Shown here: one piece after another, positions 4,071-6,644 of the stretch
Numbering within the stretch: position 1 is the first letter of the stretch
Layout: every line of letters begins with the position of its first letter
Assembly: GCA_014804085.1 (NCBI GenBank)
Contig: JAAVAM010000070.1
Location: 1-13,668, forward strand
DNA length: 13,668 bases
Source: Treponema sp.
Lineage (GTDB): Bacteria; Spirochaetota; Spirochaetia; Treponematales; Treponemataceae
Direction: 5' to 3'
Made by a program: the position numbers and the translations under genes
Notes under the pieces: model-generated
The model's database searches: none
What the model was told of the DNA's origin: nothing
Seen by the model: the letters and a program-made list of their open reading frames with translations, nothing else

Positions 4071-5414
4071 TCAAAATAGCCGCCGCGCCTCGACATAAAA
4101 GCGTTTTTCGCTCGCTTCGCCCATGGAAAAACTTTTGCGCGGGAGCGGACCGCGGCCGTTTATCGTGACAAAAAAACTGTCCTTTGCAATCGGCGGGAGC
4201 AGGATGCCCAGCTGCCCGTCCGTGCTGCCCAGCTGTACGGTTTCGTCCGTTCCGTGGATATAGTCGATTTCGATGCCTGCCGCTTGGTGCGCCGCGATGT
4301 ATTCGTCCAGCGCGGGCTGGAGCGCGGCGATCGCAAGGTCGGTGATCGCCGTTTGCAGCAGTTGATACGTCGTTTTTCCCGCGTCCGTGGTGATAAGCCC
4401 GAACGGCGCGCCCTTTGCCGCGCGGTCGCTCACGCGGCGTTCCAGCTCTGCCGCGCTTCCGATTGTTTCCACTGTGCCGCCCAGTTTTTGCCGCAGGAAG
4501 GCAATCAAGTCGGCATTGTCTGCGTTGAACACGACGCGGTGGATCGGCTCAAAGGTCGGCCCGGCATCATAGATGTTCACCACCTCCACGAGGGCATAGC
4601 GCACGGGGCTTGCGCTGATTTCCGCCTCGCTCTTGCCCTGCGCCCGCAGCGTTTTTTTGTGTTCGTCCCAGACGGCTTTTGCGGTGGCAAGGCTGTGGTT
4701 GCCGTCGCCCACGGCAAACAGGAACGTATTGCCGTCTTTGTCCGTGCCTTTTTGGGCGATTGCGTCCAGCGCGCGCGCGACGTGTTCGTATGCCGCCTCA
4801 CCGCAGACTGCCCAGCCCGTGAGGTGACCGCTTTCCTGCTGCAAGTCGCCGTCGTACACGGGGTTTCCGGCCTTGGCGAGTTCGCCCGTCTTTCCCACGA
4901 GCGCGTCGTCCGGGTCGTCGGCAAGCAGCATGATGTGCGGCAGCTCAAGCGGCGCGCCGGTGCGGATTTTCATGCGCGGCGGGATTCGTTCGGGCACGGT
5001 TGCTTCGGTGGCGCGGATCATCGCCTTGCTGAACGGCTGCCATTCGTACTTGTCCAGATCGACGGCAAGAATCAGCCCTTTGCGAGTTCGCCCGTATGCC
5101 GTCGTGCGCTCGATATACATGAACCCCTGCCGCGCGGGCGCGAACACGCCGCCGTCAAGGTAGCGGCGCATGGTCTGCTTGATACGCGCGATTCGTTCGT
5201 CCTTGTCCGCGTCCGCAAGGTACGCCTCAGGAAAAATCAGGCCGAGCGTGGACGGCCCGTCGCCCGCAACCTGCGCGGCCTTCTGCCAGTACGAGCGGTC
5301 CTGCGTGTACTGGTCGCACGCAATCACCGCCCAGCGGCGCAGGTCGATCTGTTCCGGCAGCAGGATCTCCGGCACTGCCACGCCATAAGCCTCATACGTT
5401 TCAAATGCTGTCAT
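4071..5414 (-). CDS. DUF1015 family protein
   Basis: A 447-residue protein of the DUF1015 family, which is of unknown biochemical function and widespread in clostridia and spirochaetes. Family hallmarks seen here are the N-terminal IACDQYTQD segment, the GDGNHSLATAKAVW motif (DGNH at 237-240; many relatives have DGHHR here), the IHGTDE motif at 386-391, and the C-terminal PRKSFSMGEASEKRFYVEAR segment. There is no signal peptide or membrane segment, so it is probably cytoplasmic. The ATG at 5414 has a good GAGGAG site 6 nt upstream. A promoter lies 40-70 bp upstream. It is convergent with recQ: its TGA occupies 4073-4071 and the recQ TAA ends at 4070. No terminator separates them, so 3' ends probably overlap antisense. 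It is monocistronic, so context gives no hint of function. Confidence 0.93.
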   Translation of the reverse strand: MTAFETYEAYGVAVPEILLPEQIDLRRWAVIACDQYTQDRSYWQKAAQVAGDGPSTLGLIFPEAYLADADKDERIARIKQTMRRYLDGGVFAPARQGFMYIERTTAYGRTRKGLILAVDLDKYEWQPFSKAMIRATEATVPERIPPRMKIRTGAPLELPHIMLLADDPDDALVGKTGELAKAGNPVYDGDLQQESGHLTGWAVCGEAAYEHVARALDAIAQKGTDKDGNTFLFAVGDGNHSLATAKAVWDEHKKTLRAQGKSEAEISASPVRYALVEVVNIYDAGPTFEPIHRVVFNADNADLIAFLRQKLGGTVETIGSAAELERRVSDRAAKGAPFGLITTDAGKTTYQLLQTAITDLAIAALQPALDEYIAAHQAAGIEIDYIHGTDETVQLGSTDGQLGILLPPIAKDSFFVTINGRGPLPRKSFSMGEASEKRFYVEARRLF

Positions 5415-5452: not shown

Positions 5453-5482
5453 AGTATACCGCACAACCCCGCAAGACGGCAA
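5453..5482 (-). promoter_or_regulatory. Promoter of the DUF1015 gene
   Basis: On the minus strand, TTGCCG (5482-5477), an 18-bp spacer and TATACT (5458-5453). The predicted leader is about 32 nt and contains the GAGGAG ribosome binding site. Confidence 0.6.
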
Positions 5483-5496
5483 AGGAAAAAACGCCG

Positions 5497-5837
5497 TTCC
5501 CCCGTGCGGAGGAACGATTACGAACGAACGCGGGCTTTCTACGCTTGTAGAAACGCTGCCCATGCGGAAAACATGCTTTCTACGTTTGTAGAAAACCTGC
5601 CCGGACGAAAAGCAGGTTTCCTCATTTTGCGGAAGGCTGACTTTTCGCCGGACGGCTTTCCTCGTCTTGCGGAACGCCGACTTTTCGCCGGGCGGCTTTC
5701 CTTATTTTGCGGAAAGGCGACTTTTTCGCCGGGCGACTTTCCTCGTTTTGCGGAAGGCTGACTTTGCTCCGGGCGACTTTCCGCATTTTGCGGAACGCTG
5801 ACTTTATGCCGGGCAGTTTTCCGCAAAATGCGGAAAC
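5497..5837. repeat. Palindrome array with ~40-bp period
   Basis: Units begin at 5536, 5577, 5617, 5657, 5697, 5738, 5778 and 5819, spaced 40-41 bp. Each starts with an 18-bp palindrome or remnant. The first two are TTTCTACGCTTGTAGAAA and TTTCTACGTTTGTAGAAA. The middle ones are TTTCCTC...TTGCGGAA versions. The last two approach the perfect form, ending in TTTCCGCA-AAA-TGCGGAAA at 5819-5837. Units 3-7 carry a second conserved block of about 22 bp (GCYGACTTTTCGCCGGGCRGC-like) that is itself partly self-complementary. A diverged further unit, with TTCC...GGAA arms, sits at 5497-5514, again about 40 bp earlier. The array fills most of the gene-free interval 5415-5954 and stops 11 bp before the -35 of the next gene. 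Long open frames cross it on both strands, but a 40-bp period shifts frame with every unit, so I treat it as non-coding. Function unknown. Confidence 0.88.
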
Positions 5838-5848
5838 ACGGCTCTGTG

Positions 5849-5877
5849 TTAAAACGGATGTAAAAAGTCTGTATACT
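5849..5877 (+). promoter_or_regulatory. Probable promoter of the TPETPG lipoprotein gene
   Basis: TTAAAA (5849-5854), a 17-bp spacer and TATACT (5872-5877), starting 11 bp after the palindrome array. The predicted start is about 5884, giving a ~70-nt leader. A second -10-like hexamer, TACAAT (5914-5919), lies closer to the gene but lacks a good -35. Confidence 0.5.
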
Positions 5878-5954: not shown

Positions 5955-6644
5955 ATGATGAAAAAACTTTCAAAATTGGCGACGTTGCTTTTTGCGGCAA
6001 CGTTCTTGTTCGGATCGGCGTTTGCGTTCGTCTCTTGCTCAGACGACGATGAGGGTGGCACGGGAGCAACACCGGAGACACCAGGCACACCGGAAACTCC
6101 GGGAACACCTGAGACTCCGGAGGTTACTACCGTGGACGCAGTGTGGACATTCCAAGGCGTGGCTTTGGGTGAAGGCACGATGGCGGGACTCACGAGTGGA
6201 AGCAAGATTAAAAGCGATGTAGAACTTGCTGCGACAAGTGGCACGGGCGCAACGCTTACGGCTCTTAGTGAAAGTACATTCAAGGAAGACAGCGGGAGCA
6301 ACAACCGTGGTCTCAAAACGGACGCGAGCAAGAAGTTTTCTGCGATTGCCGATGTCACGTTCGGTGTCAATGGCATTGGCTCAAGCGATGCTTCAAAAGG
6401 CGCAATCAAAGGTGCGCTCAAGTTGGTACTTTCTGCCGACGCTACGGTAGTGCTCAAGGGGTTAGTCTCTGGCTCTGCGGACACAAGATACTTATTGCTT
6501 GCTAGTGCCGACGAGCAAATCCTTAAAATCGTTCCAGAGACGAAGGGAGACACAGCGGAGCAGACAATCGAGCAGGAATTGGCGGCAGGAACATACTGCA
6601 TCGGACTTGACGGTTTTATCCTCGCTTCTGTTGAGTGCAAATAA
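5955..6644 (+). CDS. Small secreted lipoprotein with TPETPG repeats
   Basis: A 229-residue predicted lipoprotein. The N-terminal signal peptide (MMKKLSKLATLLF...) ends in a relaxed spirochaete lipobox, FVSC, with the acylated cysteine at C28. An acidic stretch (SDDDE) and three TPETPG-type repeats (about 39-55) follow, a flexible surface tether. The rest (about 58-229) alternates small hydrophobic and polar residues in a beta-rich pattern and ends with AGTYCIGLDGFILASVECK. This resembles the C-terminal beta-sandwich modules often attached to treponemal secreted carbohydrate-active proteins, but I see no catalytic motif. The ribosome binding site AAGGAG (5941-5946) lies 8 nt before the ATG. 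The codon mix uses more ACA, GGA and CTT and appears less GC-rich than the neighbours, suggesting membership of a recently spreading paralog family or horizontal acquisition. It is monocistronic, with its own promoter and terminator. No specific function is assigned. Confidence 0.85.
   Translation: MMKKLSKLATLLFAATFLFGSAFAFVSCSDDDEGGTGATPETPGTPETPGTPETPEVTTVDAVWTFQGVALGEGTMAGLTSGSKIKSDVELAATSGTGATLTALSESTFKEDSGSNNRGLKTDASKKFSAIADVTFGVNGIGSSDASKGAIKGALKLVLSADATVVLKGLVSGSADTRYLLLASADEQILKIVPETKGDTAEQTIEQELAAGTYCIGLDGFILASVECK

Follow-up and report, generated by a model that had tools for sequence, protein, structure and literature searches.

The palindrome array at 5497–5835 of the window, the window being the whole stretch of 13,668 nucleotides that was analyzed, is on balance probably a stray, or orphan, member of a family of arrays coupled to DUF6261 genes. 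The home of this family would be directly upstream of DUF6261 genes, and its arrays would be recognized by shape and spacing. Tandem arrays of closely similar period are associated with DUF6261 genes in the Treponema genomes examined.

Structure and copies of the window array

Nine palindrome units, each of 17–18 bp and followed by a spacer, were found in the array (Table 1). Successive unit starts lie 39, 41, 41, 40, 40, 41, 40 and 40 bp apart and tandem repeat finding concurs for 5617–5836, which confirmed the original prediction of eight units and a diverged ninth at 5497 with a period of 40–41 bp. The array end had been placed 11 bp before a -35 element. This is right within 1–2 bp, depending on the array end chosen, as the final 17-bp palindrome extends to 5835 (or to 5836 if one further flanking pair is counted) and the -35-like hexamer TTAAAA begins at 5849. 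An 18-bp palindrome had been claimed for every unit; it was found in the units at 5497, 5536 and 5577, the six others being 17 bp long. Arm matching within the window was likewise partial, with perfect 7-bp arms in four of the nine units and one or two mismatches in the units from 5618 to 5739 and in the edge unit at 5497.

Table 1. Coordinates of the palindrome units, the regular array and the neighboring features in the window.
Feature	Position	Strand	Remarks
DUF1015 gene	4071..5414	-	left neighbor
Promoter-like site	5453..5482	-	9 of 12; probably the DUF1015 gene's; outside the array
Unit 0	5497..5514	.	diverged 18-bp palindrome, mismatch at pair 5
Unit 1	5536..5553	.	18-bp palindrome TTTCTACGCTTGTAGAAA, 7-bp arms perfect
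Unit 2	5577..5594	.	18-bp palindrome TTTCTACGTTTGTAGAAA, 7-bp arms perfect
Unit 3	5618..5634	.	17-bp palindrome, mismatch at pair 5
Unit 4	5658..5674	.	17-bp palindrome, mismatches at pairs 5 and 7
Unit 5	5698..5714	.	17-bp palindrome, mismatches at pairs 5 and 6
Unit 6	5739..5755	.	17-bp palindrome, mismatches at pairs 5 and 7
Unit 7	5779..5795	.	17-bp palindrome, arms perfect
Unit 8	5819..5835	.	17-bp palindrome, arms perfect
Regular array	5536..5835	.	eight units, 40–41 bp steps; read as stray DUF6261-coupled type
Promoter-like site	5849..5877	+	9 of 12; probably the lipoprotein gene's; outside the array
Putative lipoprotein gene	5955..6644	+	judged from its N-terminus; no Pfam match

The edge unit is terminator-like toward the DUF1015 gene, on the minus strand. 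Orientation switches inside the array, the spacers after the two TTTCTAC units running one way and the next five the opposite way. RNA folding of the array gave z-scores of -7.6 on the plus strand and -6.6 on the minus strand, with none of 100 shuffles as stable, and its five Rfam matches at E up to 1 were all far under the gathering scores. Open frames cross the array; a coding role is unlikely since steps of 40–41 bp shift the frame and the indels seen in the sister species would break it.

The genome containing the window (G000; the window is contig C66) is an assembly of 2.7 Mb in 75 contigs with a completeness of 89.75 and a contamination of 3.57, and the closest named relative found was the metagenome bin CAMWTK010000012.1, whose DUF1015 is 96% identical. 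The window copy was not alone in a genome-wide search. Blastn with the window array returned 21 places in this genome, and a two-unit covariance model returned at least 162 matches, a lower bound that counts both strands and overlapping unit pairs and derives from 150 scored out of 1802 candidates. Once duplicated contig stretches were dropped, at least 14 array loci were obtained, of which three separate divergent genes, five convergent ones and six tandem ones and none is within a gene, as judged from uncurated intergenic calls based on open frames and codon-position GC (the stop codon of a neighbor on C39 is seemingly masked by N). A fifteenth locus lies upstream of a DUF6261 gene on C43. 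Array orientation did not track gene orientation. The dropped stretches were handled as duplicates because they are near-identical or identical to others: C21:1-12810 has 98.1% identity to the window and its copy of the array is unchanged, C75 is 97–98% identical to C51 and C74 is 100% identical to C29 over 3309 bases. The assembly may consequently mix strains or repeat pieces, and copy counts need care.

Two further palindrome repeats were observed. Positions 1–131 of the window hold another array with a 23-bp period (GAAACA...TGTTTC), which has matches on seven other contigs, the duplicate C21 not counted; no place listed adjoins a DUF6261 match. In the sister genome a repeat whose period is roughly 21 bp (TTCCCCAACATCGGGGAA-like) is present at G216:C35:21634 and G216:C54:71-150.

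Among 200 genomes of the same genus the two-unit pattern was found in 27, of which about 11 had palindromic arrays and most others had single matches with unpaired cores, among the matches listed; a reversed control pattern matched 2 genomes. The covariance model, with 28 candidates scored per genome, returned 30 of the 200 at E <= 1e-4 and 11 at E <= 1e-12, Treponema saccharophilum DSM 2985 probably being one of these 11 genomes with strong window-type arrays. Ten of them were placed in a DUF1015 tree of 29 genomes (without G095, which has 40 residues), where they did not form one clade and required at least 5 changes, with 3 of 500 shuffles as low. Blastn of 38 relatives with the window array returned no match, a search that is insensitive to such arrays.

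Covariation of the stem arms

Inner stem pairs covary well above chance across 26 related arrays. These arrays, with 195 units, were chosen by outer half-site and spacing, and the register was taken from the outer four pairs. Copies on the duplicates C21, C75 and C74, N-containing units and chains of fewer than three units were left out before counting; C39 and C28 contribute no units on the last of these grounds. Across the related arrays the 17-bp unit reads TTCC, two bases, A, a three-base loop, T, two bases and GGAA, and the 18-bp form is exemplified by TTTCTAC, four bases, GTAGAAA. The spacer was 23 nt in 111 of 169 steps and 24 nt in 41, counts that are conditioned on 22–24 nt since the chains were assembled from such spacers; a unit step of 40 or 41 bp follows.

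In the 17-bp units, pair 5 was matched in 121 of 159 cases against 66.6 if the arms were independent and pair 6 in 119 of 159 against 75.2, and the first loop position was matched in 25 of 159, below the 45.5 expected. The 36 units of the 18-bp form had pair 3 matched in 26 (17.6 expected) and pair 5 in 28 (17.2). Altogether 455 of 585 were matched, as compared to 426.5 +/- 5.0 with a maximum of 445 when the 3' letters were shuffled within arrays, and none of 5000 shuffles reached the observed total. After removal of the sister arrays, and of one array from a pair that is nearly identical, the counts were 93/125 (51.3 expected) and 92/125 (58.1) for the 17-bp form and 16/18 (9.0) and 13/18 (7.0) for the 18-bp form. 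A second alignment of 40 distinct rows, picked beforehand for at least 5 of 7 pairs, contained 67 cells in which both sides had changed, as compared to 35.8 +/- 5.4 upon shuffling. Along the length of a single array (L014) the arms shift from GTA/TAC via GTA/TGC to GCA/TGC.

The covariation that had been read from the arms of the window is therefore borne out over the 26 arrays; the case rests on the other arrays and not on the window's own arms. The accompanying claim, namely preservation of the hairpin or dyad itself, is supported by the excess at pairs 5 and 6 across arrays, which does not amount to proof of selection, since template switching in replication can create and keep matched hairpin arms, as parts of PMC8794818 describe. 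Mismatches in one spacer orientation comprised 47 A-C and 21 G-T, pooled from own, sister and other groups with units that are not independent. If the hairpin acted solely as RNA, this excess would fit G-U tolerance on the opposite strand, though array orientation does not follow the genes.

Arrays upstream of DUF6261 genes

The arrays of G000, G212, G081 and G210 adjoin the same gene, which Pfam assigned to DUF6261 for the three proteins tested; this connection lay beyond the stretch on which the original prediction was based. DUF6261 was found in 12 of 20 chosen Treponema genomes, namely 9 of 11 with strong arrays, 2 of 3 with weak arrays and 1 of 6 others, and G000, G081 and G212 have 26, 23 and 21 matches, respectively, some of them partial. 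Out of 112 DUF6261 places, 93 were in the loci examined (19 were left out) and 8 of these had too little upstream sequence. A 38–44 bp tandem array was present within roughly 1.1 kb upstream of 75 of the 85 testable genes in the 12 genomes, counts that are not independent because genomes and gene copies are related. Downstream an array was found in 1 of 89 cases, and that one has a glycine/serine-like coding look. For DUF1015, which served as control, an array lies upstream in 2 of 29 cases, namely that of the window and the sister's copy of it, and downstream in 0 of 29. The median distance from the array end to the chosen DUF6261 start codon was 99 bp, with start codons set by a rule that was wrong in at least one case (G000:C51, start hidden by N). 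Among the 10 genes without an array by repeat finding, G175:C35 has a decayed array according to the model. The palindrome of the consensus unit was clear in 34 of the 75 linked arrays, at a score reached by 9% of shuffled units, and many DUF6261-linked arrays are not visibly palindromic in consensus.

The array period followed the protein. A tree of 82 DUF6261 proteins (11 of the 93 were left out) has two superclades, on which the 42-bp label needs 7 changes as compared to a shuffled mean of 27.7, with 0 of 500 shuffles as low. Sorted by N-terminal motif, the 79 longer proteins without ambiguous residues gave a period of 42 bp in 37 of 38 for clade A and 40–41 bp in 28 of 29 for clade B. The window-type model matched 8 of the 93 loci and these are all 8 members of one subclade (support 98/98) from seven genomes. 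This test was partly blind, as 5 of the 8 loci had been picked for their arrays, 2 were already known and 1 (L242) was blind. A very weak window-type match of 12.1 bits was obtained at the T. saccharophilum DUF6261 gene when few bases were searched.

The base sequence of the array appears to be less tied to the DUF6261 protein than the period is. The orthologous loci G212:C17 and G000:C43 carry TTCCGTA/TACGGAA and TTTCCCAC/GTGGGAAA arrays, respectively, with adjoining flanks that are 98.3% and 97.2% identical (92.8% further out), and the difference spans the first palindrome to approximately codon 8. A second array type with a GAGGCCTC core occurs in the genome of the window at four DUF6261 genes and at five places lacking a DUF6261 match (C13, C38, C42:8 kb, C29:65 kb and C32); the C32 array lies at a contig end and its neighbor may therefore be missing. 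Counting against the orphan-array reading, the tree contains no matching-clade gene from 5 of the 11 strong window-type genomes (G054, G062, G095, G133 and G183), and in two of these, G062 and G095, DUF6261 was not matched anywhere. The completeness of G054 is 99%, whereas others are partial bins.

Five distinct DUF6261 loci were found in plasmid and phage collections: one of Prevotella nigrescens, two of Parabacteroides distasonis and two on faecal contigs deposited as phage. One P. distasonis record, labelled plasmid, bears der and era. The clade B query had no match in the plasmid or phage collections, the Parabacteroides query had none in phages and DUF6261 queries had none in viral contigs. 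Upstream motifs were spaced 41, 41, 41 and 41 bp in P. nigrescens, where the array overlaps the annotated DUF6261 gene start, 42, 42 and 41 bp in the first P. distasonis locus and 41, 42, 41 and 42 bp in the second. The first faecal contig has a spacing of 41, 42, 41 and 42 bp with four more loose, irregular matches, and the second has 41 and 41 bp with up to 7/20 mismatches. The tandem repeat finder reported an array in 2 of these 5 loci. Autocorrelation ranked a period of 41 or 42 bp first in 4 of 5, where it also exceeded 95% of shuffles, and in the fifth 41 bp came second, just below that line. The three Bacteroidota loci and the two faecal contigs have a similar array layout, some of them weakly.

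The genes just downstream of DUF6261 often encode BspA-type leucine-rich repeat, ankyrin or Ig-like repeat proteins: of ten such neighbors per clade, hand-picked for distance, strand and length, 9 did so in clade A and 4 in clade B. Repeats of 66–72 bp were present in 33 of the 93 DUF6261 loci and in 0 of 29 controls, and are likely a trace of such repeat-protein genes. Downstream of one window-type DUF6261 locus, L261:2819-3691 encodes a CAP12/Pycsar-type TIR domain and is possibly a defence neighbor. In clade A loci, a GCCGC...GCGGC-type hairpin precedes the ribosome-binding site within the last 75 nt before the start codon in 18 of 46.

Proposed reading and alternatives

Under the orphan-array reading the DUF6261 product or a partner would recognize the array by its shape and not by its base sequence, the shape being that of a ladder whose rungs are hairpins or cruciforms, one unit per roughly four helical turns. 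Recognition of geometry is favored because the period is constant, a palindrome is present in many arrays and the bases vary. A partner may be involved, since DUF6261 proteins are acidic (median pI 5.8 and 5.2) and alanine-rich; such acidity is unusual for a DNA binder and counts against this reading. Copies of the array would reach other intergenic sites, gain or lose whole units and drift, and the copy in the window would not specifically serve the lipoprotein gene. A search of the PDB by sequence returned no significant match for DUF6261 (best E 0.046).

More tentatively, DUF6261 and its upstream hairpin array might be the two halves of a novel sort of system that occurs in at least two phyla. 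The protein or its partner would read the geometry of the ladder, with the array free to drift or to be swapped for another palindrome as long as the period is kept. In some Treponema the system would have multiplied, giving more than 20 DUF6261 matches in a genome, and would have released strays like the array of the window. If true, the uncharacterized DUF6261 family would gain its first functional handle and a class of intergenic repeats in Treponema and Bacteroidota would gain a partner gene, and recognition of repeats via spacing and shape instead of sequence would be unusual. In the literature searched, DUF6261 was mentioned in one paper, whose title and abstract are unrelated, and searches on palindromic or REP repeats of Treponema, or on repeats upstream of unknown or BspA families, gave no such system by title or abstract (subscription papers and preprints were outside the search).

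We consider it unlikely that the arrays are neutral or selfish repeats that spread by slippage and recombination, with arms kept by hairpin-templated errors and the DUF6261 link reflecting old functionless insertions. Arrays at loci common to the two sister species do show gaps of whole units and of single bases and numerous substitutions between flanks that remain similar, imperfect units were amplified too, including in the G133 array, and both the template switching noted above (PMC8794818, in the parts compared) and the lack of correspondence between array and gene orientation agree with such an origin. Unused insertions would however hardly stay upstream of so large a share of the DUF6261 genes, with a period matched to the clade and a like layout in another phylum. 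Perfect arms were moreover commoner in linked than in stray 17-bp units (21/28 vs 68/131, Fisher p 0.035, units not independent).

Quite unlikely is a system resembling type III toxin-antitoxin modules, in which the array would yield a repeat RNA that neutralizes or regulates a DUF6261 toxin and strays would be stray antitoxin copies. Type III systems such as ToxIN, in the parts of PMC5086642 compared, likewise have tandem repeats ahead of a single gene that are constant in length but vary in sequence, with periods of 34–36 nt in the examples as opposed to 40–42 nt here. A promoter-like site between array and gene was found at 1 of 40 clade A loci (1.4 expected); in the absence of enrichment there, the clade A array could be in a leader. 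Nor were promoter-like sites in excess ahead of the arrays in clade A (2 of 40, 2.1 expected), which counts against the toxin-antitoxin reading. Clade B had such sites before the array in 5 of 31 and between array and gene in 6 of 31 (2.8 expected for each). The eight window-type loci had one between array and gene in 3 and before the array in 2, and a TATA-like box was seen by eye before the gene at two more, so that a DNA element is mildly favored there. Terminator-like sites between array and DUF6261 gene were above chance but not the rule, at 13 of 75 loci on the gene strand and 24 on the other, with 6.1 expected. Profile searches returned no match to ToxN/CptN/TenpN-type endoribonucleases, Pfam reporting only DUF6261 for three proteins and PADLOC and NCBIfam nothing convincing for four, and many stray arrays have no adjacent DUF6261 gene.

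It is highly improbable that the arrays are a REP/BIME family driven by a Y1 (RAYT) transposase. They resemble REP/BIME elements, as treated in parts of PMC2817692 and PMC3733652, in being short, dispersed and clustered extragenic palindromes with pairing kept and with a gene family that co-evolves with the local repeat. The partner here is however DUF6261 and not a Y1 transposase, the arrays lie upstream only (75/85 vs 1/89) and not on both sides in inverted orientation, and they are tandem arrays phased at 40–42 bp that have no conserved GTAG or CGTC tag (GTAG/CTAC in 2 of 163 spacers and CGTC/GACG in 40 of 163, anywhere in the spacer). In the genome of the window, which is about 90% complete, no Y1_Tnp (PF01797) was over the cut-off, a single partial match having 20.5 bits against a cut-off of 23, and Y1_Tnp was over the cut-off in 3 of the 11 strong array genomes, one with an internal stop, as compared to 58 of 200 overall. 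On present evidence a RAYT is not the driver in this genome, unless the missing tenth holds an intact copy. Defining features of REP/RAYT and of type III toxin-antitoxin systems were looked for and not found, though these two are the nearest analogues and still serve as working analogies.

Genome-wide intergenic stem-loops are also known from the bacterial stem-loop and REP families in parts of PMC2267715 and PMC12306157. Of these, PMC12306157 mentions REPs of Spirochaetota and PMC2267715 names T. pallidum as without clusters; the word Treponema is absent from the main text of both and the parts compared contain no protein partner like DUF6261. Unlike CRISPR, which has near-identical repeats and unrelated spacers, the arrays have varying palindromes and spacers that are alike within an array.

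A role as operator or leader for either the lipoprotein or the DUF1015 gene is very doubtful indeed, for although the array lies between two promoter-like sites, the sister species has it without the lipoprotein, the sister's is the only other array among nine DUF1015 upstream sequences read and the 14 arrays occupy gaps of every kind. The proposed tie to the lipoprotein gene was consequently not supported, and that gene looks incidental to the array, which in the sister species occupies the same place, between DUF1015 and an rpoN-like gene (a name given from sequence alone). Arm covariation beside a gene need not mean regulation of that gene. In three other species (L025, L026 and L027) DUF1015 adjoins the rpoN-like gene with no array, and in L022 (84% identity) DUF1015 has a different neighbor. 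The simplest reading is that the lineage to which the window and its sister belong gained the array here.
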